DNA of 64,000 nucleotides, from positions 1-64,000 of the forward strand of contig JASLKK010000010.1 of assembly GCA_030747595.1 (NCBI GenBank), read 5' to 3'. The translations under genes and the position numbers were made by a program. This document shows, one piece after another, positions 18,580-47,346 of this stretch. The notes under the pieces are model-generated. The model did not search any database. It was not told the DNA's origin and saw only the letters and a program-made list of their open reading frames with translations. Numbering within the stretch: the stretch's first letter is position 1; every line of letters begins with the position of its first letter. This stretch comes from Acidimicrobiales bacterium. Its GTDB lineage: Bacteria > Actinomycetota > Acidimicrobiia > Acidimicrobiales > MedAcidi-G1.

Positions 18580-18639
18580 GGCCGGGGTCCCCGATGGTCG
18601 TCGAATGGCGTGCGGGACCGGACCCTAGCCAGCACCGTC

Positions 18640-18680
18640 GGTCCGGGCCGTGGCCCGGCCCCGGTTCCTATTGGGAACCA
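18640..18680 (-). terminator. Tandem hairpins after the methyltransferase gene
   Basis: CCGGGCC-GT-GGCCCGG (18643-18658) and GGTTCC-N5-GGAACC (18663-18679, overlapping the stop codon) lie at the 3' end of the 11-subunit nuo operon. They are good stem-loops without a U-tract, so either a Rho-type end or an mRNA stabiliser. Confidence 0.4.
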
Positions 18681-19768
18681 ACCTTTGAGGAACGGACCCA
18701 CTCCAGCACCGTAAAGCCACCGAGGCCCGATGGATCAAGCAGTGCCTCAGATTCGATCACCCGGCTCCGGCCACGCAGGGCCGTCAGGTCACCTAGGTGG
18801 GCGGCTGTTTTCCAGATTCGCCGACCCTCGTCGACCAGTTCGGCGATGCCGTGGGCGCCCAGGAACTCTGCCTGGGTGGCAACGACGGCACCGTCGGGAA
18901 GCTGGTCGACGGCCACCTCCACGGTCACGTCCTGTGTGCCAGGTTCGTTGGTCGCGACATCGCCCCGTTCATGGCCCCGGTATGTCCGCAGCCACTCGGC
19001 CGGTGGGCGGGCGGCCATGGCTGACGTCGTGGACGCGTAGTCGACGATCAAGACGGATCCGACCCCCAGCAGACCAAGGGCGGTGTCCACCCAGACAGCC
19101 GCCTCAGCCTGGACCGGAATCCGGGCGCCCGGGCTGCACGCCGCGGCATCAACGGGCGCCGGTAGGTCGACGGGATCTCCAAGCACTTCCCGGAACTCCC
19201 CTGTCGTACCCGTCGACTCCCTGTCAACGAGCACTTCATGCCACCGGCCGTCCGCTACCTCCAGAAGCCCGAAGGCCAGGTTGTCGAGCAACTCGTTGGC
19301 CAGCACCACCCCGTGGGAGATGCACCCCACGTCAGCCAGATGGGCCACCGATGACAGGCAGACCCCGGGGAACGTGGCGTCGGTCGGCTGGACGGAGCGG
19401 AGGGCAGCCGACCGCTCCACCATTATGTATCGGCCCTCCGTCAGACAGGCCGGTTCGGCCGCCACCACGGCTCGGGCCAGCGTGCCCGACCCCGCTGCGG
19501 CCTCGACCACCACGAACCCGTTGGGACGGCCCAAGGCCTCCCAGCGGGTATCCATCCAACGGGCCAGAACGGCGCCGAACAATGGGCCGACCTCCGGGGA
19601 GGTAAGGAAGTCGCCACGGCGACCGGCGCTCCCGCCGGCCGCGTAGAAGCCCCCGTCAGGGTCGTACAGGCAGGCTTCCACCCAGGCGCTGAACGCCATG
19701 GGGCCGTCATCCCGGATGGACTCGGCCAGCCGGTCACCCAGCGACTGGGCACCCAGCGAGATCTCCAC
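18668..19768 (-). CDS. midA: MidA/NDUFAF7-family SAM-dependent methyltransferase
   Basis: A 366-residue class I methyltransferase of the COG1565 family. Motifs include SPEVGPLFGAVLARWMDTRW, the SAM-binding glycine-rich loop VVVEAAAGSGTLARAV, and ANELLDNLAFGLLEV. In mitochondria the family member NDUFAF7 symmetrically dimethylates an arginine of NDUFS2 (NuoD) near iron-sulfur cluster N2 and is needed for early complex I assembly. Here the gene starts 13 bases after nuoN of the 11-subunit operon, so it is almost surely co-transcribed. That supports a role in complex I maturation (inference). The GTG start at 19766-19768 is the only suitable one near the nuoN stop. Confidence 0.88.
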   Translation of the reverse strand: MEISLGAQSLGDRLAESIRDDGPMAFSAWVEACLYDPDGGFYAAGGSAGRRGDFLTSPEVGPLFGAVLARWMDTRWEALGRPNGFVVVEAAAGSGTLARAVVAAEPACLTEGRYIMVERSAALRSVQPTDATFPGVCLSSVAHLADVGCISHGVVLANELLDNLAFGLLEVADGRWHEVLVDRESTGTTGEFREVLGDPVDLPAPVDAAACSPGARIPVQAEAAVWVDTALGLLGVGSVLIVDYASTTSAMAARPPAEWLRTYRGHERGDVATNEPGTQDVTVEVAVDQLPDGAVVATQAEFLGAHGIAELVDEGRRIWKTAAHLGDLTALRGRSRVIESEALLDPSGLGGFTVLEWVRSSKVGSQ

Positions 19769-19781
19769 GGCAGTGGGCGGG

Positions 19782-21290
19782 TCAGCCCCCGAGGGCCAGC
19801 AGGCTCACGTCGGTGAAGCGGGCCACCAACTGAGGGGCGACGCCAAAGGCCAATGTGACCGCCCCACAGAGGGTCAGCGCCGTAACCAGCGATGGGGTCA
19901 CCAAGACCGGCGAATGGTCGCCATCCGGCACGTCGTCGGCCCACATCCGGCGGGCGATCGCTGCGTAGTAGTAGAGAGCGATCACCGAGTTCACGGCACC
20001 GACGGCGGCCAGCACGTAGCCCCACGGCTCGCCCGCGGTGGCCAGCACCCGGAAGACCTCGAACTTGGCGAACCAACCACCCAGCGGTGGGATCCCGGCC
20101 AGCGAGAAGAGGAAGATCGTCATGGCCACCGTCAGGCCCGGGGCATAGCTGAAGGCCCCCCCGAATGAGGAGACTTCGGCCGAGCCGGTCTTGCGAGATA
20201 GAGCGATGATGACGGCGAAGGCGCCGAGGTTCATGGCCGTGTAGATGGCCAGATATGTGACGACCGCTGAGAGCGCCTGGTCCCCGTTGGACAATCCGTG
20301 GCCAGCCACGGCCAGAGGAGCAATCATGAAACCTGTCTGGGCGATACCCGAGTACGCCATGAGGCGAACCACGTTGGTCTGGCGCAGTGCCACAAGGTTG
20401 CCGACGGTCATCGAGGTGGCGGCCAGGATCCACATCAGTGGCTCCCAGACCTCACTACGGGAGTAGAAGCCGACGAACACGAGAGCCAGCAGGGCCACGA
20501 ATCCGGCGGCCTTGGACGCCACGGCGAGGAAGGCGGTCACCGGGGTGGGCGCCCCCTCGTAGACATCGGGTGCCCACGTGTGGAAGGGCACGGCCGAGAC
20601 CTTGAAGGCGAAGCCGGCCACGATGAACACGATGCCCATAGTGACCACGGCGGTCGATGTGCCAGCGGCCGCCATCGACGTACCGATGTCGGACAACAAT
20701 GTCGAGCCGCTCACGCCGTAGAGCAGCGACATCCCGTAGAGCATGACCGCTGAAGCGAACACGCCCATCAGGTAGTACTTCAGGCCCGCCTCGGTGGAGT
20801 GCAGGTCTCGCTTGCGCCACGCCGCCATCAGGTAGGCCGGGATGGAGAGCAACTCGAGTGCGACGAAGATCGACACCAGGTCGCGGGCCGAGGCCATCAT
20901 CACCATGCCCATGACTGAGGCCAGCAGGAGGCCGTAGTACTCGTTCTCCCAGTAGTCACCCTCGGCCACGTAGTTGGTGGACAGCAGGACCACCACGTAC
21001 CCGGCCAGCAGGAAGATGGCCTTTACGACGAGGGAGAACTCGTCGACCACGTAAGCACCATCGAACATCACCCGGTCGGTGCCGTCGACGGCCAACGTCA
21101 GCAGGGGTACAGCGGTAGCCAACAGACCCAGACCGGCCAAAGCCGCAGTGAACGGACGTGCCTTCTCCAGGAAGATGATGTCGGCCAGCGTGATCAGCGC
21201 GCCGGCGGCAAGCAGCACCAGTTCGGGCGCGATGCCGTGCCAGTCGATGGCGGGGCGCTGGAACGCCAGGAGAAAGAGAGCGTCGGTCAC
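19782..21290 (-). CDS. nuoN: Complex I subunit NuoN (11-subunit complex)
   Basis: One of three antiporter-like membrane subunits that carry the proton path of complex I. The 502-residue protein has about 14 predicted spans and the conserved KYYLMGVFASAVMLYG and GFAFKVSAVPFHTWAPDVYEGAP segments, which hold the lysines of the channel. It is the last nuo gene of the operon: it starts three bases after the nuoM stop and is followed 13 bases later by midA. It is clearly a different sequence from the NuoN at 30623-32116. Confidence 0.95.
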   Translation of the reverse strand: MTDALFLLAFQRPAIDWHGIAPELVLLAAGALITLADIIFLEKARPFTAALAGLGLLATAVPLLTLAVDGTDRVMFDGAYVVDEFSLVVKAIFLLAGYVVVLLSTNYVAEGDYWENEYYGLLLASVMGMVMMASARDLVSIFVALELLSIPAYLMAAWRKRDLHSTEAGLKYYLMGVFASAVMLYGMSLLYGVSGSTLLSDIGTSMAAAGTSTAVVTMGIVFIVAGFAFKVSAVPFHTWAPDVYEGAPTPVTAFLAVASKAAGFVALLALVFVGFYSRSEVWEPLMWILAATSMTVGNLVALRQTNVVRLMAYSGIAQTGFMIAPLAVAGHGLSNGDQALSAVVTYLAIYTAMNLGAFAVIIALSRKTGSAEVSSFGGAFSYAPGLTVAMTIFLFSLAGIPPLGGWFAKFEVFRVLATAGEPWGYVLAAVGAVNSVIALYYYAAIARRMWADDVPDGDHSPVLVTPSLVTALTLCGAVTLAFGVAPQLVARFTDVSLLALGG

Positions 21291-21293
21291 CGG

Positions 21294-22985
21294 CTAGTTC
21301 CCGGCCGCCGCATGCTCGTCGGCTTCCTCGGCGTGGCCGTCATCCTCGTGATCGTCGCCATGGTCATCGTCGTGACCAGCGGCCTCACCAAGTCGGTAGA
21401 CGTACGAACAGCCGAGTGCCTCGACCTCCTCGTCGGTCAACTGGTGGGCATCGACGGTCAAGCAGTCGCTCAACGATGCGTCCACCGCACCGTCGGAGAC
21501 CCGGAAGATCAGGTTCGGGTAGATACCAATAGCCACGATGAGGGCCAGGATCGGCGCCCACGCGATCCACTCGTGCCTAGTGGTGTCGGTAATGGCCGGG
21601 TCATCGGCAAACTCCTCGGGCGGGTTACCGAAGGCGGTCCGCTGGAGCAGCCACAACAGGTAGCCGGCCGCCAGCACCGTGCCGAGCGCGGCGATGACCA
21701 TGTAGGTCCGGAAGGTCTCGATGGGAACGCCGTTGGCCGGGTTATAGGCCGAGAGGATGGCCGGGAACTCACCCCAGAAGCCGGCCAGGCCGGGCAAACC
21801 GAGCGATGCCATTACGCAGAAGCCGAAGATCCAGCCCATCCGGGGCGCCTGGACCAGCAGGCCTCCGAGCCGGCTGATCTTGAGCGTGTGGTAACGCTCC
21901 TTCATCGAACCGGCGAGGAAGAAGAGCATGCCGGTGATGAGGCCGTGGGCGACCATGCCCATGATCGCCGCGTTGATACCGAAGTCGGTCAGTGTGGCAA
22001 TGCCCAGCATCACGAAGCCCATGTGGGCCACTGACGAGAAGGCGATGAGCCGTTTCACGTCGGTCTGGGCCAGACAGCCCAGCGCGCCATAGATGATCCC
22101 GACCACGGCCAACAGGCCGATCCACGGTGCCCACGTGACGGCGGCGTCGGGCAGGATCGGGATAGCGATCCGAATGAAGCCGTAGGTGCCGAGCTTCAAC
22201 AGCACGGCGGCCAGGATGACTGAACCGACGGTTGGGGCCTGGGTGTGGGCATCGGGTAGCCACGTGTGGAACGGGAACATCGGGACCTTGATGCCGAAGC
22301 CAAGGAACATCCCGCCGAAGATCCACAGCTGCGCGGTGCGGGACACGCCACCGGCGGCCACTGCTTCGGACAGGCCGGCTATGGAGAACGTCTCGGCGCC
22401 GGTCAGGAAGAACAGGGCCAGGAAGCTGACCAGCATCAGGGCCGAGCCGAACAGCGTGTAGAGGAAGAACTTCAGCGAGGCATAGCGCCGGTCCTCGCCG
22501 CCCCAGACGGCGATCATGAAGAACATCGGCAGGAGCACGACCTCGAAGAACACGAAGAAGAGCACCAGGTCCTGGGCCACGAAGGTGCCGATCATCCCGG
22601 TCTCGAGGATCAGGATCAGGATCAGGAAGGCCTTGGGGTTGACCGGATCCGGGAAGTGGTTCCAGCTGTAGATGATGCACAGCGGCACGATCAGCATGGT
22701 CAACAGGATCAGCGGTAGCGACATGCCGTCGATACCCACCGAGAACCGGCTGGAGATCACGTCGATCCAGACCTTGTCGACCCCGAACTGGAGGCGGTCG
22801 GTGTGATCCAGGTCGAACTGGATCAGCAGCAGGACGCCCACGAACGCCACCCACAACGAGGTTACGAGCGCGATCAGCTTGTGCTGGTCCTCTCGCTCCC
22901 TCGGGATGAGCATCATGACCGCCGCACCGACAAGCGGTGAAAACGTGGCGAGGGTGATGCCCCAGCCGTCGAGCAAATTTTCCAT
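21294..22985 (-). CDS. nuoM: Complex I subunit NuoM (11-subunit complex)
   Basis: Antiporter-like proton-pumping subunit of 563 residues. It shows the family segments KVPMFPFHTWLPDAHTQAPT and KRLIAFSSVAHMGFVMLG. The C-terminal 35 or so residues after the last span form a His/Asp/Glu-rich tail (HDDDHGDDHEDDGHAEE region), which is not part of the NuoM fold. NuoL lies 12 bases upstream and NuoN three bases downstream in the same direction. A shorter tail of the same kind occurs on the other NuoM. Confidence 0.95.
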   Translation of the reverse strand: MENLLDGWGITLATFSPLVGAAVMMLIPREREDQHKLIALVTSLWVAFVGVLLLIQFDLDHTDRLQFGVDKVWIDVISSRFSVGIDGMSLPLILLTMLIVPLCIIYSWNHFPDPVNPKAFLILILILETGMIGTFVAQDLVLFFVFFEVVLLPMFFMIAVWGGEDRRYASLKFFLYTLFGSALMLVSFLALFFLTGAETFSIAGLSEAVAAGGVSRTAQLWIFGGMFLGFGIKVPMFPFHTWLPDAHTQAPTVGSVILAAVLLKLGTYGFIRIAIPILPDAAVTWAPWIGLLAVVGIIYGALGCLAQTDVKRLIAFSSVAHMGFVMLGIATLTDFGINAAIMGMVAHGLITGMLFFLAGSMKERYHTLKISRLGGLLVQAPRMGWIFGFCVMASLGLPGLAGFWGEFPAILSAYNPANGVPIETFRTYMVIAALGTVLAAGYLLWLLQRTAFGNPPEEFADDPAITDTTRHEWIAWAPILALIVAIGIYPNLIFRVSDGAVDASLSDCLTVDAHQLTDEEVEALGCSYVYRLGEAAGHDDDHGDDHEDDGHAEEADEHAAAGN

Positions 22986-22997
22986 GTCGGCGTCTCC

Positions 22998-25280
22998 CTA
23001 GACGAGGACGATGAGTATTCCGGCCAGGACCGTTGCTGCCGCGAACAGGATCGCCGCGTAGCTCTGGACCTTTCCGGAGTTGATCTTGCGAAGCTCTTCA
23101 CCTGCACCGGATGCACCGCGTCCGGATGCGTCAACCGCCCCATCGACCACCAACTGGTCGATCTTTTCGTAGACGACGGTCCCGGCCTTTATGGCGGTCT
23201 CGCCGACCACGTCCACGGTGCGGTCGATGACGTCCTGGTTGATCCGATTGGCCATTCGGGCCAACGGGCCCTTGGTGCCATCGGCCACGACGCCGTTGTA
23301 GAAGTGATCGAGGTAGTACTTGTTGGACAGCAGGGTGTGGCCCATTCTGGCCAGCGGGTACTTGGTGGTCGGCCCATCGGGCAGTTCGGTGAGGCTGGTA
23401 CCAGCGGCCTTGGACGCGGCCTCCACTTTGACGAAGTAGTACCACCCGGATGCGGCGATGCCACCGATGACCACCAGCGTCGAGACAATGGCCAGCGACC
23501 AGCTCGGGGTGGCGTGGCTGATGGCCGGGAAGTAGCCGGCTACCGGTTCCACGAAGTGGCCGAAGCGCTCCTGGAGCGACCCGGGAGCCAACTGGAAGCC
23601 CTTGGGCATGTTGAAGAAGCCGGCCACGACGGCCAGCCCGGCCAGGATCCACAACGGGCCGGTAATGCGCGGGCCCGACTCGTGGGGTTCGCCGTGACCA
23701 CGGAACTCACCGAAGAAGGTGAGGTAGACGCAGCGGGTCATGTAGGCAGCGGTCAGTGCCGCGGTGAGCATGCCCATGCCCAGCATCAGGGTGTAGGCCC
23801 CGTTGCCCCCGGTGCCTCCCATCAGGCCCCAACCACCGGTCCCAACGAGGATCTCGTCCTTGGACCAGAAGCCGGCCAACGGCGGAAGGCCGGCCAGGGC
23901 CACAGTGCCGATCATGAACGTCCGATAGGTGTGCGGCATGTCCTTGCGGAGGCCACCCATGTCAGACTTCATGTCGAAGCTGTGCACGGCGTGGCTGACC
24001 GAACCGGAACCCAGGAACAGGCAGGCCTTGAAGAAGGCGTGGGTGAACAGGTGGAATACGGCCGCCGTCCAGGCACCCACGCCCAGGGCCAGGACCATGT
24101 AACCCAGCTGGGAAATCGTCGAGTACGCGAGCACCTTTTTGATGTCGCGCTGCACGAAGGCCAACAGTGCACCCACGATGGTGGTCAAGCCACCGATGAA
24201 GGCCATGAGGTTGATCGAACTGCCCCCGATCTGGAAGCCCTCGAAGAACACCCCGTACATGCGGGCAATCATGAAGACACCGGCCACCACCATGGTCGCC
24301 GCGTGGATGAGCGCCGAGACGGGCGTCGGGCCGGCCATGGCGTCGGGCAGCCACGTGTGCAGGAAGAACTGTCCGGACTTGGACATCACGGCAGCCATCA
24401 GGCAACTGGCGGCCACCACCAACGTGGTGTGCGACAGCGCCCCGCTGTTGGCCAGCGCGTTGGTCTCGGCGATGGAGAACGATCCGAAGCGGTCAGGCAG
24501 GGCTGAACCGGCGGCGAAGAATAGGACGGTCACGCCGACCAGGAGGCCCATGTCGCCCACCCGGTTGGTCAGGAAGGCCTTGAGTGCCGCATCGCTGTTG
24601 GGCTTCTCCTCCCACCAGTGACCGATAAGGGCGAACGAGCAGACGCCGACTAGCTCCCAGGCGCACAGCAGCTGCAGCGTGTTCTCCGACACGACCAGCA
24701 GGAGCATCGACGCGCTGAACAGGGACAGGAAGGCGAAGAAGTGGGTGTAGCGCCGGTCGCCGTGGACGTAGTCGGTGGAATAGACGTGAACCAGCAGCGA
24801 CACCAGGGTCACCACGAGCAGCATCATCACGGCCAGCCCGTCGACCAGGGTACCGACGGTGAACTCCACCCCGTTGGTCTGGAACCAGGTGGCGGTGCGA
24901 TGCACGGCCAACGACGGATGGCCTGGCTCGTGTCCAGCCCCGTGATCATCTCCGTGGGCCACCCCGTGGTCATCGAGCTGGACGACCGCCACGTGGACCT
25001 CGTCGCCGTGGAAGTTGTCCCGGTGGTCGACCCATGCGATGCCGGTCAGCAGGGCCAGCACGAAGGCGATGCCCACCGCGGCAATGCCCAGTTCCGAGCC
25101 GCCCCGGGGCATCTTCTTGCCGAAGAACAGGATCCCGATGAACGAGAGCGCGGGAAGCAACGGGATCAGCCAGACGTTGCGAAGCAGCCAACTACCACCC
25201 TCGGTGATACCGAGGGCCAGGCCGTCGCCGGTAGCCGAAGCGGTGGCGGCCGCCGATGCGATGGTGAGGAGTGCGTCCAC
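22998..25280 (-). CDS. nuoL: Complex I subunit NuoL (11-subunit complex)
   Basis: The distal antiporter-like subunit, with a long lateral helix that spans the membrane arm. At 760 residues it is longer than the common 610-650. It has the family motifs FFLHTWLPDAMAGPTPVSALIHAATMV (given here as HTWLPDAMAGPTP) and DIKKVLAYSTISQLGYM. Residues 86-127, in the loop after the second span, are rich in His and Asp (DDHGVAHGDDHGAGHEPGH). The C-terminal part has the lateral helix and a last span (AAILFAAATVLAGILIVLV). It starts five bases after nuoK. Confidence 0.95.
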   Translation of the reverse strand: MDALLTIASAAATASATGDGLALGITEGGSWLLRNVWLIPLLPALSFIGILFFGKKMPRGGSELGIAAVGIAFVLALLTGIAWVDHRDNFHGDEVHVAVVQLDDHGVAHGDDHGAGHEPGHPSLAVHRTATWFQTNGVEFTVGTLVDGLAVMMLLVVTLVSLLVHVYSTDYVHGDRRYTHFFAFLSLFSASMLLLVVSENTLQLLCAWELVGVCSFALIGHWWEEKPNSDAALKAFLTNRVGDMGLLVGVTVLFFAAGSALPDRFGSFSIAETNALANSGALSHTTLVVAASCLMAAVMSKSGQFFLHTWLPDAMAGPTPVSALIHAATMVVAGVFMIARMYGVFFEGFQIGGSSINLMAFIGGLTTIVGALLAFVQRDIKKVLAYSTISQLGYMVLALGVGAWTAAVFHLFTHAFFKACLFLGSGSVSHAVHSFDMKSDMGGLRKDMPHTYRTFMIGTVALAGLPPLAGFWSKDEILVGTGGWGLMGGTGGNGAYTLMLGMGMLTAALTAAYMTRCVYLTFFGEFRGHGEPHESGPRITGPLWILAGLAVVAGFFNMPKGFQLAPGSLQERFGHFVEPVAGYFPAISHATPSWSLAIVSTLVVIGGIAASGWYYFVKVEAASKAAGTSLTELPDGPTTKYPLARMGHTLLSNKYYLDHFYNGVVADGTKGPLARMANRINQDVIDRTVDVVGETAIKAGTVVYEKIDQLVVDGAVDASGRGASGAGEELRKINSGKVQSYAAILFAAATVLAGILIVLV

Positions 25281-25285
25281 GGTGA

Positions 25286-25585
25286 TCAGCCCCTCAACTG
25301 GTCGATCAGGGTGAGATCGATGGATCGACGGTTGCGGTACAACAGCAGCACCATGGCCAGGCCCACCCCGACCTCAGCCGCGGCAACTGCGATGACGAAC
25401 AGGGCAAACACCTCGCCGCCCACCGACGCCCGGAAGGCACCGAAGGCCACGAGGTTGATGTTCACTGCGTTCAAGATGAGCTCGATGGACATCAGCACCA
25501 GCACGCCGTTGCGACGGGCCAGCACGCCGTACACACCGATGGAGAACAGCACGGCAGACAGGATGAGGAACTGGTTCAGCAGCAT
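25286..25585 (-). CDS. nuoK: Complex I subunit NuoK (11-subunit complex)
   Basis: Small three-span membrane subunit of 99 residues, [20 protein letters not shown], with the conserved glutamates of the proton path in [11 protein letters not shown] and [11 protein letters not shown] choose the ATG at 25583-25585 because it gives the usual family length and start; the frame is open further upstream but without similarity. It lies ten bases after nuoJ and five before nuoL. Confidence 0.96.
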
Positions 25586-25595
25586 CTCAGCCCCC

Positions 25596-26141
25596 TCAGT
25601 CCCGCCGTGCCACGACGATGGCGCCGATGAGGGCGGCGAGCAGCAGGACCGACACGGCCTCGAAGGGGACGATGTAGGCGCTGAAGATGCTGTCGGCGAT
25701 CTCGGCCGTGGTGCTGGGGGCCGACCGGTCCAACTCGGCATCAGCGAACGAGTCGACCAGGGCGGCGGTCATGACGCCGAAGACCAGCAGTCCAACAAGT
25801 CCAGCCATGAGGCGCCGCTCACCCGACACGCCATCGTCGTCACCGAAGGAGCCCTTGGTGAGCATGATGCCGAACAGGAAGAGGACGACGATGGCGCCGA
25901 TGTAGACCATCACCTGGGTGACGCCCACGAACTCAGCACCCAGCAGGATGAAGATGCCGGCCACCCCAGACAGCACGACCACCAGGTAGAGGGCAGCGTG
26001 GACAACATTGTGGGTGGTGACCATCCGAAGCGCCGAGACGATCATCGTGATGGCCATCACGGCGAACGCCACGTTCTGGGCCACCAGGGCCTCGCCGCTG
26101 GTCAGACGGTCCATGTCAGCGAGTGCGGCAAGCGTGCTCAT
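25596..26141 (-). CDS. nuoJ: Complex I subunit NuoJ (11-subunit complex)
   Basis: Membrane subunit of 181 residues with about five spans. The segment [30 protein letters not shown] is the family core (here [16 protein letters not shown]), containing the pi-bulge helix involved in the active/resting change. The start codon overlaps the nuoI stop by four bases (ATGA), so the two are translationally coupled. Confidence 0.95.
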
Positions 26142-26662
26142 CGGGGCACCTGGAGTTTCTTGGCCTCACTGCCAGCCTCGTAGTCCTGGAAGTCCGGGAC
26201 GGTCTCCATCCACTGTCCGAGCTTGGACTTGTCGTGGAGCAGGTCAGCGATCCTCGGCTCGGAGTACTCGAACTCCGGCGACCAGAACAGGGCCTCGAAC
26301 GGACAGACATCTACGCAGATCCCGCAGTACATGCAGAGGGCGAAGTCGATGTCGAAGCGGTCCAGGGCGTTCTTCTGGCGGGGCTTTCCGCCCGGCCGTC
26401 GCGGCGGCGCCTTGTACTTGTGGCCCTCGATGTAGATGCACCAGTCCGGGCATTCGCGGGCGCAGAGCATGCAGGCCGTGCAGTTGTCCTCGTGCAGCGT
26501 GATCACGCCGCGGGCCCGGGGCGTCGGAGCTTCCTTTACCCGTGGGTACTGCACGGTGTGGGAACCCTTGGTCAGGGTGCGCACCATGGTCTTCAGGGTG
26601 ACACCGAGGCCCTTGACCAGGCCGGGAACCTTGGGGAGCGCCAGTTTCGGGAGAGCGGACAT
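26138..26662 (-). CDS. nuoI: Complex I subunit NuoI (11-subunit complex)
   Basis: Peripheral-arm subunit carrying clusters N6a and N6b between the electron entry side and N2. The 174-residue protein has two CxxCxxCxxxCP motifs, [12 protein letters not shown] and [12 protein letters not shown]. In enzymes without NuoEFG this subunit lies at the exposed end of the electron path and is the likely contact for a soluble donor (family knowledge from cyanobacterial and archaeal enzymes; inference here). It overlaps nuoH by one base and nuoJ by four. Confidence 0.96.
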
Positions 26663-27702
26663 CAGAAGACCACCTTCAGGATGCCGGTCAGCACGATGTT
26701 GGCCAGCGACAGGGGAATGAGCACCTTCCAGGCCAACTGCTGGAGCTGGTCCTCACGGAAGCGGGGGTAGGTGAAGCGGAACCAGAAGATCAGGAAAGCC
26801 ACCAGGATCACCTTGCCCAGCAGGATGGCCGGGCCGATGACGTTGAACAGATCGCTGGTCGGATCGATGCCCGGCACGTACCAGCCGCCCAAGAACAGTG
26901 TGGCGGCCAGAGCCGAGAAGATGCCGGCCGTGGCGAACTCGCCGATGAAGAACAGCAGGAAGCGAAGGCCGGTGTACTCGGTGAGGTAGCCGGTGACGAT
27001 CTCGGACTCGGCCACCGGCATGTCGAACGGTGGCTGGGTGAGCTCGGCTTGAACGGCCACCAGAAAAATGGCGAAGCCTAGGAACTGGGTGATGATGAAC
27101 GGATTGCCGATGCCGCCCCACCCGAAGATCTCTCCGGTTGCCTGGGCCATGACGATGCCCTGGACGTTGAGGGTGCCGGCCTGGATGACCACGCCCATGA
27201 CGGCCAGGACCAGGGGCAGCTCGTAGGCCACCAGCTGCCCGGCGGCCCGCAGGCCTCCCAGCAGCGAGTACTTCGATGACGAAGCCCAACCGGCCATGAG
27301 GATCCCGATGACCGAGATGGACGACACGGCCAGCGCCAGGAAGATGCCGGTGTCGACGTCGATGAACCAGGCGTCCGGTCCGGCAGGAATGACCAGCACC
27401 AGCAGGAACGTGGAGATGAGCACCACGAACGGGGCCGCCTTGAAGACGACCCGGTCGGCCTTGGCCGGGATGATGTCCTCCTTCTGGAGGAACTTGCCGA
27501 CCTCGGCCAGCAACTGCAGCGATCCGAACGGACCAGCCTCCATGGGCCCGAGCCGGCTCTGCATGAAGCTCATCATCTTAAAGAGGAACAGGTAGACGAG
27601 CGCGCCGGCAGGCAGCAGCACGGCCAGCAGACCGACCACGGCACGGATCCCGGTCTGCTGCCACCAGGCCAGCTCGACCGCGAAGGTCAAGGCGCCGCTC
27701 AT
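26662..27702 (-). CDS. nuoH: Complex I subunit NuoH (11-subunit complex)
   Basis: Membrane subunit of 346 residues that forms the quinone chamber with NuoB and NuoD and links it to the proton channels. The family motifs [13 protein letters not shown] and [21 protein letters not shown] are present, with conserved Glu and Asp in the latter. The common form of the first motif is RxGPxxxGxxG. It overlaps nuoD by four bases and nuoI by one. The other NuoH (37539-38768) is longer, 409 residues, and clearly different. Confidence 0.96.
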
Positions 27703-28871
27703 CGATCGATGTCCCCGAGGATGAAGTAAAGGCTGGCCAGGATCGACACCACGTCAGGCACGTAGGTGCCCTCGAGGAGCCACGGCGTGATCGAGACATT
27801 GTTGAACGACGCTGAGCGGATCTTCACGCGGTACGGCACCAGGTCGCCCTTGGACACCACGTAGTAGCCCATGATTCCCAGCGGGTTCTCGGTCTCGACG
27901 TACGCCTCGCCAGCCGGCACCTTGATGATGCGCGGCACCTTGGCCATGACGGGACCCGACGGGATGCCATCGAGCAACTGGTCAACCATGCCACAGGCTT
28001 CACGGACCTCCTGGAGGCGCACCCAGTAGCGGGCGAACGAGTCGCCGTCAGGATGGGTCCAGACTTTCCAGTCCAACTGGTCGTGGACCAGGCCGATGCC
28101 GCCGTCGCGGCGGAGATCCCAGTCGACACCCGAGGCCCGGATGTTGGCGCCCGACAGTCCGTAGGACAGGCCCACGTCGGCCGGGATCACGCCGATGCCC
28201 CGAGTCCGGGACTGGAAGATCTCATTGCCGGTAACGAGGTCCTCCATCTCGTCGCAGAACGTGCGGATGCGGCCCAGCACGCCCTTCGTCTCATCGATCC
28301 AGCCCTTGGGAAGGTCGTCCTTCAGCCCACCGATGCGGTCGAAGTTGGGATGGAACCGACCACCGGTGACAGCCTCGATCTGGTTAAGGACGAACTCGCG
28401 GTCGCGGAAGGCGAAGAAGACCGGGGTGACGGCTCCCAACTGGACGCCCATGTCGCCGAGGAACAGCACAACGTTGGCGATCCGGGACAGTTCGAACAGG
28501 ACAGTGCGGATCCACTGGGCGCGGGGCGGCGCCTCGACGTCCATGAGCCGCTCAGCAGCCAGGATGAACGGCACCTCGTTGGCAAAGCTGCCCAACCAGT
28601 CGATGCGGTTGATCAGCGTGGTGACCTGCGGGTACGTCCGGACCTCGGAGAGCTTCTCGTAGCCCCGGTGCATGTAGCCCATGACCGGTTCGGCGGCAAC
28701 CACCCGTTCACCGTCCAACTTGACGATGATGCGCAGCGTGCCGTGGGTGGCCGGATGCTGAGGACCGATGTTGAGGGTCATGCCCTCGGTCTCGATCTCG
28801 ACATTGACTCGGGCATCGCTGGCCTGGCCAGCGATGTAGGCCATTTGGCGGGGATCGCTCACCGGGGTCAC
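27699..28871 (-). CDS. nuoD: Complex I subunit NuoD (11-subunit complex)
   Basis: The 49-kDa-type quinone-binding subunit, 390 residues, related to [NiFe] hydrogenase large subunits. The quinone-site histidines are in GPQHPATHG (H39 and H43). The segment GYMHRGYEKLSEV has R69 at the position equivalent to bovine NDUFS2 Arg85, the arginine dimethylated by NDUFAF7. In NRIDW the residue equivalent to bovine Tyr108, which binds the quinone head group, is a tryptophan (W92). The other NuoD has Thr and Tyr at these two places. The C-terminal GDIDR is the usual ending. It overlaps nuoC and nuoH by four bases each. Confidence 0.96.
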   Translation of the reverse strand: MTPVSDPRQMAYIAGQASDARVNVEIETEGMTLNIGPQHPATHGTLRIIVKLDGERVVAAEPVMGYMHRGYEKLSEVRTYPQVTTLINRIDWLGSFANEVPFILAAERLMDVEAPPRAQWIRTVLFELSRIANVVLFLGDMGVQLGAVTPVFFAFRDREFVLNQIEAVTGGRFHPNFDRIGGLKDDLPKGWIDETKGVLGRIRTFCDEMEDLVTGNEIFQSRTRGIGVIPADVGLSYGLSGANIRASGVDWDLRRDGGIGLVHDQLDWKVWTHPDGDSFARYWVRLQEVREACGMVDQLLDGIPSGPVMAKVPRIIKVPAGEAYVETENPLGIMGYYVVSKGDLVPYRVKIRSASFNNVSITPWLLEGTYVPDVVSILASLYFILGDIDR

Positions 28872-29587
28872 GATGCGTCTCCCTCTTCCGCACTCGCGTC
28901 ATCGTCATCTCCGCCGGGCATGAGCTCCACGTCGACGATGCCCGGCCAGGGCTTCACCCGGCGGGCCAGCAGCGGATAGTCCTTGCGCAGCGGGTTCCCC
29001 TCGAAGTGCGACGGCAGGTAGAGGTGCACCTGATTGGGATGGTTCCGGAACGAGATGCCGAACATCTCCCTGGCCTCACGCTCGTGCCAGTCCACACCGG
29101 GGTAGACGCCGATCCACGAGTCGACCTCGGGCCTGTCGCCCGCCAGGTCGGACTTGATGGTTATGCCCACATGGCCCACCGGGTCATGGACCCGGGCCAG
29201 CAGCTGGAAGCGGGTCTCGCCGCCGGCGACACCCGTCTCGAACGCGTCAGCCGGAGCATCCGACCCGTCGGATGCCTCATGGGGGAGGTCCACCTGGGCG
29301 TCCATGTCGCGTCCGTAGGGCGACGGCATCCAGTCGACGGCCGACAGGAAGTTGAAGTACGTCATGGCGCAGCGGTCCCGCAAGACGGTCGCTGTTTCGA
29401 CCCACGCGTCGGCGGTCACCCGTACCCAGGCATCGACACCGGGCTCGACGTGGCTCTCGACCAGGCCGCTTCCCAGCGCATCGGCCAGCGTCGCGACCAG
29501 CGCGTCGCGCTGCTCGTCAGTCGGGTCCGCCTGTACCTCGTCGGTGTCCACCGTGGTGTCAGCGTCAGGTGACGACAATGGGATCAC
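28868..29587 (-). CDS. nuoC: Complex I subunit NuoC (11-subunit complex)
   Basis: The 30-kDa-type peripheral subunit, 239 residues. The conserved core is [21 protein letters not shown] followed by [16 protein letters not shown]. An acidic N-terminus (about 30 residues) and an acidic C-terminal tail flank it. The core also has a short Asp/Ser-rich insertion around residue 110. The GTG start at 29585-29587 overlaps nuoB by 23 bases. A later start would shorten the N-terminus but cannot be decided by sequence. Confidence 0.93.
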
Positions 29588-30065
29588 CCGTCCAACGTTC
29601 AGTCATGTCCTCGGTGGCAATGCGCTCCTGGAGCAGCACGATGCCCTCCAGCAGGGCTTCCGGGCGCGGCGGGCAGCCGGGCACGTAGACGTCAACAGGG
29701 ATGATCTGGTCGACGCCCTTGGTCACCGAGTAGCTATCCCAGTAGGGGCCGCCGCAATTGGCGCACGAACCCATGGAAATCACGTACTTGGGATCGGGCA
29801 TCTGCTCGTAAAGACGACGCACGGCCGGCGCCATCTTGTCGGTCACTGTGCCCGACACAACCACCAGATCGGCCTGACGGGGGCTGGCCGGAAACGGGAT
29901 GACGCCCAGGCGCATCACGTCGTAGCGCGGCGAGGCGAACGCCGCGCCCATCTCGATGGCGCAGCACGCCAAGCCCCACTGGTACACCCAGAGGGAGTAC
30001 TTGCGGCTGACGTTGAGCAACTTGGTCAGCGGCTTCGGCAGCTTGCCGCTCTCGACGAGTCCCAT
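29565..30065 (-). CDS. nuoB: Complex I subunit NuoB (11-subunit complex)
   Basis: The PSST-type subunit that holds cluster N2, the direct electron donor to quinone. The 166-residue protein has the tandem cysteines in GLACCAIEM, a third in MGSCANCGG and the fourth in [10 protein letters not shown], so N2 can form. It lies 28 bases downstream of nuoA. The other NuoB shares these four cysteines but differs at the third motif (MGVCASSGG). Confidence 0.96.
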
Positions 30066-30093: not shown

Positions 30094-30459
30094 TCAGATC
30101 CACCGGAGCAGACGCTTACGCCAGGCGTAGAACAGTCCGAGCGCCAGGATGAAGATGAAGATGGCCATCTCGACCAGCCCGAAGACGCCATAGACCTCGA
30201 GGCGGGTGGCCCACGGGAAGATGAACACGGCTTCCACGTCGAACAGCACGAACATCAGGGCGAACACGTAGTACCGGATGTTGGACTGGCTCCACATGTC
30301 GCCCTGCGGGTCGACACCGGACTCGTAGTTCATGACCTTCTGCGAGGTCTCACGCGACGGTCGAAGCAAGCTGCCCAAGCCCAGGAACGCCGACACCAAC
30401 AGCACGGCGAGGCCGCCGAAGACGACCACCACGAGCCAGCTACGAAGGAAGTCGGACAC
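30094..30459 (-). CDS. nuoA: Complex I subunit NuoA (11-subunit complex)
   Basis: Three-span membrane subunit near the quinone chamber, with the conserved acidic residue in FDVEAVFIFPWA and the loop with the ESGVDPQGDMW region. The open frame extends to a GTG at 30510, but I choose the GTG at 30457-30459. It gives 121 residues, the family length, and starts just before the first span; the alternative adds 17 unrelated residues. It is the first gene of the 11-subunit operon and follows a 163-base gap containing a promoter and a Rex-like site. Confidence 0.9.
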   Translation of the reverse strand: MSDFLRSWLVVVVFGGLAVLLVSAFLGLGSLLRPSRETSQKVMNYESGVDPQGDMWSQSNIRYYVFALMFVLFDVEAVFIFPWATRLEVYGVFGLVEMAIFIFILALGLFYAWRKRLLRWI

Positions 30460-30528
30460 GAAGGGAGAACCTAACGAATCGGGCGGATGGGCGACGGCGA
30501 ACGAGACCACAGGCCCGTCGACCCGGGC

Positions 30529-42675: not shown

Positions 42676-43319
42676 GATGCCTCCTCTTCTACCGCAGGCA
42701 TCCATGCGGGTGACCCGGTGACGTCCTCGGGGGGTACCACGCCGGCCCGACGATCATCCGGCACGTGCTGTCGTACCCGACCGAGGGTTCCGTGGTCGGG
42801 GATGTCACCGCCGTCGCCCGCTGCGCCGCGGACCAGTGGGCTACGTCCGGCCCGGAGGTCGGCCACCACCTCATCGAAGGTTTCGGTGTCGGCCCGGTGG
42901 AAGTAGCGGTAGTTCACGGTGAAGCAGGGCGCCTCGGTGCAGGCTGCCACGCACTCCACGTCCTCGACGGTGAACAGGCCGTCGTCGGTGGTGCCACCGG
43001 CCCGGACCCCGAGCGTCGACTCGGCGTGCTCTAGGAGTTCCTCGCCACCCAGTAGTTGGCAGGACACGTTGGTGCATACGTTGACCACATACCGGCCCAC
43101 CGGATGGAACTTGAACATTTCGTAGAAGCTGCCGGTGCCCAGCACCTCGGCGGCCGTGGTCCCGGTCATGGCGGCGATCTCGACCATGGCCTCGGGCATT
43201 ACCCATCCCTCCTGCTCCTGGGCTAGATGGAGTAGTGGGATGACCGCCGACTTCGGCTTCGGGTACCGGGTCAGGATCTCGCGGGCGATCCGCTCGTTCG
43301 ATGGGTCGAACCAGCTCAC
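42672..43319 (-). CDS. nuoE: Complex I subunit NuoE
   Basis: Thioredoxin-like [2Fe-2S] subunit (cluster N1a) of the NADH module. The four ligands are in CTNVSC and CVAACTEAPC. The GTG at 43317-43319 overlaps nuoD by four bases and gives MSWFDPSNERIAREILTRYP, a good family start. At 215 residues it is longer than the usual 160-170 owing to a C-terminal extension. Confidence 0.95.
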   Translation of the reverse strand: MSWFDPSNERIAREILTRYPKPKSAVIPLLHLAQEQEGWVMPEAMVEIAAMTGTTAAEVLGTGSFYEMFKFHPVGRYVVNVCTNVSCQLLGGEELLEHAESTLGVRAGGTTDDGLFTVEDVECVAACTEAPCFTVNYRYFHRADTETFDEVVADLRAGRSPLVRGAAGDGGDIPDHGTLGRVRQHVPDDRRAGVVPPEDVTGSPAWMPAVEEEAS

Positions 43320-44719
43320 CGGTCGACCTCCCCCATGATGGGGTCCACCGACGACACGACAGCCACGCCGTCGGCGATCAGACCACCCTCCATGAGGTGC
43401 GGCAGGGTCTGTAGGTTCACGAAGCTGGGACCACGGATGTGCATCCGGTAGGGCTTCGGACCCCCGTCCGACACCAGGTAACAACCGAGTTCACCACGGG
43501 GCGACTCCACGGCGGCGTACGTCTCACCCTCTGGCACGTGGAAGCCCTCGGTGAAGATCTTGAAGTGGTGGATGAGGGCTTCCATCGACTCGTCAATGCG
43601 GGCACGCGGCGGCGGGGTGACCTTCTTGTCTTGGGTCCGGTAGTCGCCTTCGGGGATCAGGTCGATGATCTGCTCGACGATTCGCAGCGACTCCCGGATC
43701 TCGTTGAGGCGGATGGCGTAGCGGTCGAACGAGTCGCCGTGGGTACCCACGATTACGTCGAACTCCACCTCGTCGTAGGCCAGATAGGGCTGGTCGCGGC
43801 GCAGGTCCCAGGCGTAGCCGGTTGACCGCAGGATGGGACCGGTGGCCGACAGGGCGAGCGCTTCGGCAGGGGTCATGACGCCCACGCCCTGGAGCCGCTC
43901 GCGAAAGATGGGTTGCCCGGTGAGCAGGGTGTCGTACTCGTCGAGTCGGGGTGGGATCAGGTCGAGCAGCCGCCGAAGGTCGTCCTGCCACCCGTCGGGG
44001 AGGTCGGCGGCGACCCCTCCGGGCCGGATGTAGTTGTGGTTCATCCGCAGGCCGGTGACCTTTTCGAAGAAGCGGAGCACCTCTTCGCGCTCGCGCCAGC
44101 CATAGATCATCATCGACACGGCGCCTAGGTCCATGCCGTTGGTGGCCTGGAACAGGAGGTGTGAGGCGACCCGATTTAGCTCGCACATGAGCATCCGGAT
44201 CCAGGTGGCCCGCGGCGGCACGTCGATGCCCAGGAGTTGCTCAACGGCCAGGGAGAAGGCCAGTTCGGAGAACAGTGGGGCGGCGTAGTCCATCCGGGTG
44301 ACGTTGGTCGGGCCCTGGAGGTAGGTGAGGTCCTCGGCGGTCTTTTCCATACCGGTGTGGAGGTAGCCGATGATCGGCTTGGTCCGCAGGATCGTCTCTC
44401 CCTCCATCTCCAACATGAGACGGAGCACTCCGTGGGTGGACGGGTGCGACGGGCCCATGTTGAGGATCATCCGCTGGTCTGCAGCATCGCCGGTGGGCGG
44501 ATCGTCGGGATCGCCAGCCAGGACGGCGGCCTCGGCCTCGCTCAGGCGAAGTACGGCACTCGTGTCGTCACGGCGCAAGACGCGCTCGTACGAGCCCAGG
44601 TCCAGATCGGAGCCCTCGACACCGGGGCCGTCAAGGGCGCCGTCGAGAGAACCGTCGACGGGCTCGTCGGTCGGAGGACCTGTCGGAGGACCTGTCGGAG
44701 GACTGATCATGTCCGTCAT
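43316..44719 (-). CDS. nuoD: Complex I subunit NuoD (14-subunit complex)
   Basis: The 49-kDa-type quinone-binding subunit, 467 residues. The family core starts near residue 84 with MILNMGPSHPSTHGVLR (quinone histidines H92 and H96). In GYLHTGMEKTAED residue T122 stands where bovine Arg85 is, as in Thermus, and Y145 in TRMDY is the quinone tyrosine. About 83 N-terminal residues form a Pro/Gly/Asp-rich extension with the repeat PPTGPPTGPPT. The ATG at 44717-44719 overlaps nuoC by four bases. Confidence 0.95.
   Translation of the reverse strand: MTDMISPPTGPPTGPPTDEPVDGSLDGALDGPGVEGSDLDLGSYERVLRRDDTSAVLRLSEAEAAVLAGDPDDPPTGDAADQRMILNMGPSHPSTHGVLRLMLEMEGETILRTKPIIGYLHTGMEKTAEDLTYLQGPTNVTRMDYAAPLFSELAFSLAVEQLLGIDVPPRATWIRMLMCELNRVASHLLFQATNGMDLGAVSMMIYGWREREEVLRFFEKVTGLRMNHNYIRPGGVAADLPDGWQDDLRRLLDLIPPRLDEYDTLLTGQPIFRERLQGVGVMTPAEALALSATGPILRSTGYAWDLRRDQPYLAYDEVEFDVIVGTHGDSFDRYAIRLNEIRESLRIVEQIIDLIPEGDYRTQDKKVTPPPRARIDESMEALIHHFKIFTEGFHVPEGETYAAVESPRGELGCYLVSDGGPKPYRMHIRGPSFVNLQTLPHLMEGGLIADGVAVVSSVDPIMGEVDR
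44671..44703. repeat. 12-bp tandem repeat at the 5' end of nuoD
   Basis: About 2.7 copies of TCGGAGGACCTG, giving PPTG repeats in the N-terminal extension of the minus-strand NuoD. Confidence 0.8.
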
Positions 44720-45219
44720 CGGGCGGCCGGGGCGTCCTTGAACTGGACCGGAATCCGGCCAATGGCCACGTCGCGACGGAGCGGGTGACCCTCCCAGTCC
44801 TCGGGCATCAGGATCCGGGTGTGGTCGGGGTGGCCGGCGAAGGCCACACCGACCAGATCCCAGGCCTCGCGCTCCATGGCCTCGGTCCCCGGGAAGATGT
44901 CGAACAGCGATGGCACCACGGGCTCGGCTTCGGGCACCTGGGCCCGCAAACGAACCCGTCGACCTCTGGTGTGGTCGATGAATGCGGCTACTACCTCGAA
45001 GCGCTCGGGTGTCACGCCCTCGGGCAGGTCGGTGCGACCTGGATGAGCGGAGTAGTCCACGGCGGTGACGTCGATGGCCATGCAGAAGCCGTCGGCTTTC
45101 AGGGCCGAAACAGTGTCCAGCCACTGGTCGACGGTCGGGTGCAACACGACCTGCCCGGTGGCCTCGACCACCTGCACGCCGTGGAGCAGGGACTCGTCGC
45201 TCACCTCGGGCTCGCTCAT
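44716..45219 (-). CDS. nuoC: Complex I subunit NuoC (14-subunit complex)
   Basis: The 30-kDa-type subunit, 167 residues. The conserved core is [20 protein letters not shown] followed by [13 protein letters not shown]. It is shorter and more standard than the other NuoC. It overlaps nuoB and nuoD by four bases each. Confidence 0.94.
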
Positions 45220-45824
45220 CGGGTGCCCAGTTCCACGGCCTGGACGGTCTCGACGGGAGCGGCACGCACGTCGACCTCGATGGCCGCGCCACCGTCATTG
45301 GCCTCGCGGCGGCGTGTCAGTTCGCCGCTCTGGATGTTGTCGTGCAGCGTCAGGATGGCGTGCATCAGGGTCTCGGGGCCGGGCGGGCAACCGGGGGCGT
45401 AGACATCGACCGGCACGACCTGATCGACGCCCTGGACAATGGCGTAGTTGTTGAACATTCCGCCGCTCGACGCGCACACGCCCATGGAAATGACCCACTT
45501 GGGCTCCATCATCTGGTCGTAGATCTGGCGCAGGATGGGAGCCATCTTCTGGGACACCCGGCCGGCCACGATCATCAGGTCGGCCTGACGTGGCGAGGCC
45601 CGGAAGACCTCCATGCCGTAGCGGGCCAGGTCGTAGTGAGCGGCACCGGTGGCCATCATCTCAATGGCGCAGCACGCCAGGCCGAACGTCGCCGGCCAGC
45701 AACTTCGGGCCCGCGACCACTTCACGAGATCCTCGACCTTGGCCGTGACGAAGTTGTGCTCGAGGCCCTCGAGGCCGTGGGACATCACGTCTGAGGTCTC
45801 GCCGAGTCCGGGAAGGTGCACCAT
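45216..45824 (-). CDS. nuoB: Complex I subunit NuoB (14-subunit complex)
   Basis: Cluster N2 subunit, 202 residues. The N2 cysteines are in [19 protein letters not shown] and [10 protein letters not shown]. The ATG at 45822-45824 overlaps the nuoA stop by one base; the frame remains open further upstream, but that part lies inside nuoA. The C-terminal 40 residues extend past the usual end. Confidence 0.95.
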
Positions 45825-46309
45825 CAGGCGTCCCGATCCCGTCCCTCGAGCCCCACTTCGCGAACCCCGGCCCGCCGAACGGTGGACGACGAGGTGCGGT
45901 GCGGTGACACGGCGTGCCGGACCCGACGTACCGGACCCCACTCAAGGGCCCCGTTGCCGATCAGGTACACGAACGACTCGAATACCGCCGCCGAGAAGAT
46001 GAGGACGGCCACCAGACCGAACAGGCCGAGACCGTCATGGGCAATGGCCCACGGGTAGAAGAAGATGATCTCGATATCAAAGACGATGAAGATCATCGCC
46101 ACGAGGAAGAACCGGACGGGGAACCGCTCGGGCGTCTCACGTCCCGGGATGATCCCGCACTCGTAGGGCGCGGCCTTGCGGTCATTCGGGCTTCGGGGGG
46201 CGAGCAGGCGCGAGGCGACGAAGCTGAGGGCGGCGAACAGGAACGCCAGGATCAGGAGGACGATGATGGGGAGGTACTGGCCGAGCACGTCACTCGTCCC
46301 CAGTTCCAC
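45824..46309 (-). CDS. nuoA: Complex I subunit NuoA (14-subunit complex)
   Basis: Three-span subunit, 161 residues, with [20 protein letters not shown] (shortened family loop) and [13 protein letters not shown]. The C-terminal 35-40 residues are a basic, Arg-rich extension. The GTG start at 46307-46309 lies 26 bases after the preceding gene, leaving no room for a separate promoter. The 14-subunit complex I is therefore probably transcribed with the bc-complex genes upstream. Confidence 0.93.
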
Positions 46310-46335: not shown

Positions 46336-47346
46336 TCAGGCGCTGCTGGTCTCGAACTCCCTGCGCCGCTCCATGAGCTCCTTGTCACGCACGTGGAGCC
46401 AGTAGCAGAGGGCCAGGAAGACCAGCAACGAACCGATGGTGACCAGTGCAGGTCGCAGGCGAACCCATCCGAGATCACGGATCATCACCACCGACACGAC
46501 GGGCTCACCGGGGTCGACAACCGGACGGGGCGGGGCCACGCCGGCAGGGACCTCTTGGAATAGCACCCCCTGTAACTGCACCACCGTGTAGCGGGTCGGG
46601 TGGGTGAGTCGGGCCGAGTTGGTGATCCAATGGCTGATCCGGTCCCAACGGTTTGGATCATCGGTCAACGAGGGCTTGCCACCCATGGTGTAGGCATCGA
46701 GCAACTTGTAGTCGGCCGAACTAGCAAACCCGAGATCGGGATGGGCGAGCACGTCAGCGGCCGCCTGAGCCTGCGCGTCGCCGGCCTCGGTGGTGGCCAA
46801 GAGGCGCCATGGACCAACGGCGCGGAGACCCGCGGCATCGGTCACGTTGCGGGCCACGGCAGCAAGCTCCGACCGAGTGATGGTCTCGTTTCGCAACTGG
46901 CGGTCGGCTCGAAGGGCATTGAGTGCCTCGGCCTCCAGGTCCGGGTTGTCGGTCGCGTTGGGGAGCGTGTCGAACTCCGCAATCGCCACGGCGTCGCCAG
47001 AGGCCACGACCAGTTCGTAGGCCGACGGGATCTCGTCCGGATTGGGCAACTCACGGGCGTACGACAGGCCACTGGCCCGAAGGTCCCCGACGTTGATGTC
47101 CACGGTCTTCCAGCTCGGGGCGTCACCCTTCCAGCCAGAGCCGTACATCCACCAGGCGCTGCCCAGGATGACCATCCAGCCCATGAGTGCGGCGGCGGCC
47201 ATCAGGGTGGCCAGCCGGACACCCGAATTGGTGGCGATGACCAGCCAGACCGATCCCATGAGGACAACGAAGCCGGTGGCGACGACCAGGATGCCTCGGA
47301 TCTCGGGGTCCCATGCCAGGCCGGCCAGCGTGACGAGGCTGTCCAT
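46336..47346 (-). CDS. Conserved-looking membrane protein of unknown function between bc complex and complex I
   Basis: I do not recognise this family. The 336-residue protein has two N-terminal spans (about residues 18-38 and 45-66) and one C-terminal span (about 299-318). A soluble domain of some 230 residues between them would lie outside the membrane on one side. It contains no cysteine pairs or haem motifs. Its start overlaps the stop of the di-haem cytochrome c gene by one base (TGATG), and it is followed by nuoA. Co-translation suggests a structural or assembly partner of the bc complex (inference). Confidence 0.75.
   Translation of the reverse strand: MDSLVTLAGLAWDPEIRGILVVATGFVVLMGSVWLVIATNSGVRLATLMAAAALMGWMVILGSAWWMYGSGWKGDAPSWKTVDINVGDLRASGLSYARELPNPDEIPSAYELVVASGDAVAIAEFDTLPNATDNPDLEAEALNALRADRQLRNETITRSELAAVARNVTDAAGLRAVGPWRLLATTEAGDAQAQAAADVLAHPDLGFASSADYKLLDAYTMGGKPSLTDDPNRWDRISHWITNSARLTHPTRYTVVQLQGVLFQEVPAGVAPPRPVVDPGEPVVSVVMIRDLGWVRLRPALVTIGSLLVFLALCYWLHVRDKELMERRREFETSSA

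Follow-up and report, generated by a model that had tools for sequence, protein, structure and literature searches.

Symmetric dimethylation of an arginine in the NuoD/NDUFS2 subunit of complex I (Arg85 of the bovine protein, within KCDPHIGLLHRGTEK) has been described in bovine, human, Pichia, and Paracoccus enzymes, while the equivalent arginine of E. coli is unmodified (PMC3750175). The enzyme that methylates NDUFS2 Arg85 is NDUFAF7 (PMC3829151), a member of the MidA family. In Thermus, the corresponding position of Nqo4 is held by threonine and an arginine of Nqo6 fills the same space, where Yarrowia NDUFS7 carries threonine (Hameedi et al.; PMC8042128). In mitochondria, the arginine and its methylase are hard to separate from assembly, which complicates assigning a role to the dimethylated arginine beside cluster N2. 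Bacteria with two complexes I, one pairing an arginine-bearing (Arg-type) NuoD with midA and the other having the arginine moved to NuoB and threonine in NuoD (Thr-type), offer a natural internal control, in which loss of midA is expected to affect one complex only. The window analysed here, a stretch of 64,000 nucleotides from an Acidimicrobiales bacterium (contig JASLKK010000010.1), encodes such a pair.

A MidA-family gene at the end of an 11-subunit nuo operon

The midA gene (18668-19768; it and all nuo genes and codons described below lie on the minus strand) encodes a product of 366 amino acids that matches PF02636 (Methyltransf_28) with 106 bits (E 2e-30; cut-off 23.3) and is the sole match to this profile in a search of the whole 2.46 Mb genome; no NCBIfam model matched it. 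Its sequence matches in the PDB are 1zkd (DUF185), 5ztz (the Dictyostelium NDUFAF7 homologue), and 4f3n. An AlphaFold model built with 40 homologues from the window and the compared loci (mean pLDDT 93.9) likewise found MidA/COG1565 structures as its top matches with Foldseek and VIA-align, the latter giving Z scores of 33.6-36.1 over 325-341 residues against 4g67, 5zu0, 5ztz, 1zkd, and 4f3n; the next unrelated fold scored 13.6, and the MidA fold extends over the whole length of the protein.

The start of midA lies 13 nt past the stop codon of nuoN, the final subunit gene of an operon reading nuoABCDHIJKLMN and lacking E, F, and G. Its genes are nuoA (30094-30510; PF00507), nuoB (29565-30065; PF01058 and alignment to NDUFS7), nuoC (28868-29587; PF00329), nuoD (27699-28871; PF00346 and PDB alignments), nuoH (26662-27702; PF00146), nuoI (26138-26662; 4Fe-4S domains), nuoJ (25596-26141; PF00499), nuoK (25286-25741, with the true start inside this reading frame), nuoL (22998-25280), nuoM (21294-22985), and nuoN (19782-21290), of which nuoK, nuoL, and nuoM were assigned from sequence and nuoN from sequence and homologues in relatives. 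The N2-binding CC motif and GPQHP are found in the sequences of this operon, and its NuoD and NuoB are of the complex I type, which together with the absence of NuoEFG identifies an 11-subunit complex I. A 14-subunit nuo operon lies directly upstream. The earlier note on this DNA had described a MidA/NDUFAF7-type methyltransferase ending the 11-subunit operon, and profile, fold, and the 13-nt spacing confirm it.

Several further features of the locus were recorded. An acs-like gene in the same orientation begins 88 nt beyond midA, and the space between the two (18580-18667) holds a G+C-rich inverted repeat, CCGGGCCACGGCCCGG, without a T-run, which may or may not terminate the operon. Two genes upstream of the 14-subunit operon (46336-48542) encode membrane-anchored proteins, one with two CxxCH haem-binding motifs. 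The NuoD of the 11-subunit operon is also about 24 residues shorter than its 14-subunit counterpart around the conserved PPPR...SMEALIHHFK (360 versus 384 residues, counted from the GPxHP region).

The residues of the SAM site and pocket are conserved in the window's MidA (E89, G93, G95, N158, E159, D162, D243, Y244, G277, D280, and T282). SAM motif I reads EAAAGSG, with Ala91 at a position where 38 of 40 relatives have glycine, which may be regarded as a small caveat on activity. The same substitution would suit a protein that acts as an assembly chaperone, binding NuoD with little or no methyl transfer and reading the arginine only as part of a recognised surface; the linkage and co-occurrence described below would fit any NuoD-specific maturation factor, and Arg-type complexes evidently assemble in genomes free of MidA. 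Such a role is nevertheless unlikely, given that the SAM site and catalytic pocket have kept E89, N158, E159, D162, D243, Y244, and D280, that the fold matches the SAM-bound homologue 4g67, and that methyltransferase-dead MidA is reported to give no rescue in Dictyostelium (original work as cited in PMC9006661).

A reciprocal switch between NuoD and NuoB

The NuoD of the 11-subunit operon is of the Arg type (GYMHRGYEK), its site reading M-H-R69-G-Y-E-K, with the Arg69 codon at 28665-28667; this residue is the equivalent of NDUFS2 Arg85 and the proposed target of MidA. The NuoD of the 14-subunit operon (43316-44719; identified by PDB alignments) is of the Thr type (GYLHTGMEK) and offers no arginine target, its site reading L-H-T122-G-M-E-K with the Thr122 codon at 44354-44356 (both residue numbers count from the start codons used in the earlier note). 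HMMER alignments place the threonine of Thermus Nqo4 opposite Arg69 and the arginine of a mitochondrial 49-kDa subunit (HRG) opposite Thr122; the residue alignment given in the earlier note is thus correct, and the contrast between Arg69 and Thr122 at the NDUFS2 Arg85 site stands. Chance is not a concern, as neither the match to the family nor the alignment of the residues is ambiguous. The accompanying proposal that the modification is older than mitochondria is nothing new, symmetric dimethylation at this arginine having been shown for Paracoccus denitrificans in 2013 (Carroll 2013; PMC3750175).

What the earlier note had missed, and what is added here, is a reciprocal switch in NuoB. The NuoB of the 11-subunit operon (VSGT..KMAP) carries threonine (codon at 29847-29849) on the mitochondria-like side of the switch, its VSGT aligning to the VAGT of NDUFS7. 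The NuoB of the 14-subunit operon (45216-45941, with the true start inside this reading frame; VAGR..KMAP) resembles those of Thermus and mycobacteria, and its VAGR aligns to the Thermus and M. smegmatis proteins (2fug_6 and 8e9g_B), the arginine (codon at 45558-45560) being the equivalent of Thermus Nqo6 Arg83. With NuoB threonine beside NuoD arginine in one complex and NuoB arginine beside NuoD threonine in the other, both arrangements are present in one cell. The reciprocity extends to all 101 neighbouring nuoB-nuoD pairs (genes at most 5 kb apart) from 80 genomes, comprising 68 pairs of NuoB-Arg with NuoD-Thr and 33 of NuoB-Thr with NuoD-Arg, with zero exceptions. The residue swap in NuoB thereby provides a structural reason for the missing MidA target in the 14-subunit, Thr-type complex.

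Distribution and linkage of midA and Arg-type nuoD

In a survey of 296 genomes of the phylum, PF02636 and sequence patterns for Arg-type NuoD, Thr-type NuoD, and HRA/HRS variants were searched and the exceptions were read individually. MidA and Arg-type NuoD occurred together in 81 genomes, MidA alone in 8, Arg-type NuoD alone in 58, and neither in 149 (Fisher 3e-25); restricted to genomes with a detected NuoD, the counts are 81, 3, 58, and 41. Of the 84 genomes in which both MidA and some NuoD were detected, 81 thus carry an Arg-type NuoD. Among the 44 genomes with Thr-type NuoD only, 41 have no MidA, the three exceptions being G092, G208, and G279, of which G208 is the clearest. In the window's own order, MidA is absent from all six Thr-only genomes and present in 15 of 16 Arg-type genomes. 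Counted by family, the table becomes 31/1/13/26 (p 1e-8), and permutation within families gives p 0.024. The last of these tests is the fairest, and its support is modest; shared descent accounts for much of the statistical signal.

Some apparent exceptions came from the patterns themselves. The 24 MidA genomes at first scored as lacking an Arg-type NuoD were mostly such an artefact, many carrying HRA, HRS, or HRAFDK in place of HRG. The HRA/HRS pattern was run on all 296 genomes, which avoided correcting the MidA-positive ones alone, while two HRAFDK genomes (G052 and G064) and one AGY-serine genome (G180) were added among the MidA-positives only. The seeming absence of Thr-type NuoD from three genomes with Arg-type NuoD and MidA was likewise a pattern miss (HTGMEW, HTGMER).

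The converse does not hold, for midA is absent from 58 of the 139 genomes in the phylum survey that have an Arg-type NuoD. A two-way co-occurrence is accordingly rejected on the evidence of these genomes, of the Bacteroidota (see below), and of E. coli; given how frequent Arg-type NuoD is without MidA, the arginine does not require it. Of the co-occurrence expected in the earlier note, the direction from MidA to Arg-type NuoD survives (81 of 84) and the direction from Arg-type NuoD to MidA fails (58 of 139 without). A nested group with HR[GA]FEK (families f23, f38, f45, f52, and f71) has intact Arg-type 11-subunit operons, mostly without MidA. At the HRGFEKLAE loci (L098-L102 and L208-L211), complete Arg-type 11-subunit operons were seen with no PF02636 gene; in this group, either the arginine goes without methylation, as it does in E. 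coli, or a different enzyme acts on it.

Individual genomes yielded further observations. A weak MidA homologue adjoins a lone Thr-type nuoB in G279 (L117; C21:957000-976999), a genome in which no Arg-type nuoD was found. The sole genome of family f25 with MidA and Arg-type NuoD has both on one contig closely resembling the window's group (L111; G141:C498), possibly through contamination of the assembled genome or through transfer. More than one PF02636 copy per genome was seen in some actinobacterial families (G189, G167, G124, and G092), and the extra paralogues may possibly have other targets.

Beyond the phylum, 50 named MidA genomes were considered from Nitrospirota, Cyanobacteriota, Bacteroidota, Acidobacteriota, Desulfuromonadales, and Methanoperedens-type archaea; the NuoD pattern was found in 46, and essentially all 46 include an Arg type. 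In a subsample centred on Acidobacteriota, among the matches listed, MidA occurs in none of 11 Thr-only genomes (HTGMEKLFE), in all nine that combine an HTGMEK Thr type with an Arg type, and in G350, which has a Thr-type NuoD with another motif; the Arg-only genomes there, again among the matches listed, are divided between 16 with and 24 without MidA, split by NuoD subfamily. In Bacteroidota, among the matches listed, nearly all genomes have an Arg-type NuoD, and 5 of 128 exceed the PF02636 cut-off, one match being strong. These distributions bear on the idea that MidA modifies the compensating NuoB arginine of the 14-subunit complex, which in Thermus fills the same space beside N2 (PMC8042128). 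This idea is scarcely credible, as MidA is missing from 41 of the 44 genomes in the phylum, and from all 11 of the second survey (among the matches listed), in which Thr-type NuoD, with arginine in NuoB, is the only type, and as midA is linked in the window to the other, 11-subunit operon.

Gene position adds to the association. An Arg-type nuoD lies at most 15.5 kb from midA in 46 of the 81 genomes that have both, with about 1% expected by position, and by the coordinates listed for the genomes compared, no midA was found 20 kb or less from a Thr-type nuoD. At least four gene orders are seen in several phyla. In the first, that of the window's class and of most Acidimicrobiia-like cases, midA is the last gene of the 11-subunit operon; in the second, seen in actinobacteria with genomes of 7-10 Mb (probably Streptomyces) and in families f20, f21, f55, and f58, it has a lone Arg-type nuoD next to it or nearby; in the third, found in Nitrospira, it opens an Arg-type 14-subunit operon; and in the fourth, found in cyanobacteria, it adjoins ndhH or follows ndhCKJ. 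As midA is linked to an Arg-type complex I in Nitrospira and cyanobacteria too, the link tracks the arginine and not the 11-subunit form, and a link specific to 11-subunit complexes is rejected on account of the Nitrospira 14-subunit operons that start with midA. The specificity for one of two complexes suggested in the earlier note is supported in part: by linkage, co-occurrence, and relocation of nuoD to the vicinity of midA, MidA pairs with Arg-type and not Thr-type NuoD, and not with 11-subunit complexes as such. No earlier report of this linkage was found in the literature searched, although work on MidA evolution (Shahul Hameed, 2018) lay outside the search, and priority is uncertain.

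In all three lone-nuoD genomes read (L223, L224, and L225), nuoD is missing from the second nuo operon, where nuoC is joined directly to nuoH (near 11312 in L224). In 13 genomes, the Thr-type nuoB and the Arg-type nuoD are distant from each other or on separate contigs, and in 12 of these the distance between midA and nuoD is 0.4-8.6 kb; midA thus follows nuoD and not the operon. A lone Arg-type nuoD beside or near midA, with a second operon lacking nuoD, was also observed at L103, L109, and L110 (families f21 and f55 among them). In a NuoD tree, the 11-subunit Arg types group together with strong support, apart from a second group made up of the Thr types, and the relocation of nuoD could represent one or two events.

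Two alternatives must be weighed against this pattern. The association might mainly reflect the vertical transmission of a single 11-subunit operon in which midA stands last by chance, with no functional coupling, as a single gene order in most Acidimicrobiia-like cases and the modest within-family support could suggest; with at least four orders in several phyla, with midA staying by nuoD and not by the rest of the operon in the 12 of 13 split genomes, and with the six same-order genomes that lack Arg-type NuoD all lacking midA as well, this is very improbable. Alternatively, MidA might act on other substrates, be they proteins or DNA, as has been proposed for Wolbachia (PMC12455994), and its nuo linkage might be incidental. 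The few genomes with MidA and no Arg-type NuoD (G208) and those with several copies (G189, G167) would agree with this; it is nonetheless improbable, for midA and Arg-type nuoD are adjacent or close together in Acidimicrobiia-like genomes, large-genome actinobacteria, Nitrospira, and cyanobacteria, and the pairing includes nuoD genes outside their operon. Linkage and co-occurrence together support the view that MidA would belong with Arg-type NuoD and not with Thr-type NuoD.

Proposed role of MidA and comparison with known systems

The favoured explanation, to which a probability of about 0.72 is assigned, is that the midA product is an arginine methyltransferase of the MidA/NDUFAF7 type that serves only the NuoD of the 11-subunit complex I and acts on Arg69 during assembly. 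MidA would bind free NuoD while the complex is being assembled and, with SAM, would symmetrically dimethylate Arg69 beside cluster N2, after which NuoD would dock onto NuoB with N2 properly seated, in analogy to NDUFAF7 and NDUFS2 Arg85; we infer the methylated residue, the symmetric product, and the effect on assembly. The cell's 14-subunit complex would have no need of MidA, as its NuoB supplies the cluster-side arginine and its NuoD site is a threonine. A further and rather doubtful suggestion is that, in cells with two complexes I, the methylation could serve as a paralogue-specific maturation mark, placed only on the NuoD whose NuoB lacks the cluster-side arginine and helping to prevent mixing of NuoD and NuoB partners, and that selection could have kept midA with a relocated nuoD. 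MidA and Arg-type NuoD are associated far outside the proteobacteria as well, in Nitrospira, cyanobacteria, Acidobacteriota, and Methanoperedens-type archaea, and the survey predicts which bacterial complexes I would be worth examining for arginine modification.

Compared with described systems, the 14-subunit complex of the window has the NuoD-Thr/NuoB-Arg arrangement of Thermus thermophilus and Mycobacterium smegmatis; unlike those organisms, the window also encodes NuoD-Arg/NuoB-Thr in a coexisting 11-subunit complex. Paracoccus denitrificans likewise has a bacterial NuoD with arginine at the site, and symmetric dimethylation of its Nqo4 Arg65 is proven (PMC3750175), whereas modification of Arg69 is predicted here for another phylum and for an 11-subunit complex. 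E. coli NuoCD shares the arginine but leaves it unmodified (PMC3750175), and E. coli is absent from the control genomes matching PF02636. Rhodopseudomonas palustris DUF185 (1zkd) and Burkholderia thailandensis COG1565 (4f3n, 4g67), both proteobacterial and with structures solved, are of the same family and fold as the window's MidA. Finally, the human and Dictyostelium NDUFAF7/MidA proteins share PF02636, the fold (VIA-align Z of about 35 to 5zu0/5ztz), and an arginine at the equivalent site of the partner subunit, although the window's MidA is bacterial, is 25% identical, and has an activity that is predicted only. Unlike the NDUFAF7/MidA of mitochondria, it shares an operon with its presumed substrate, in a cell whose second complex I lacks the target arginine.
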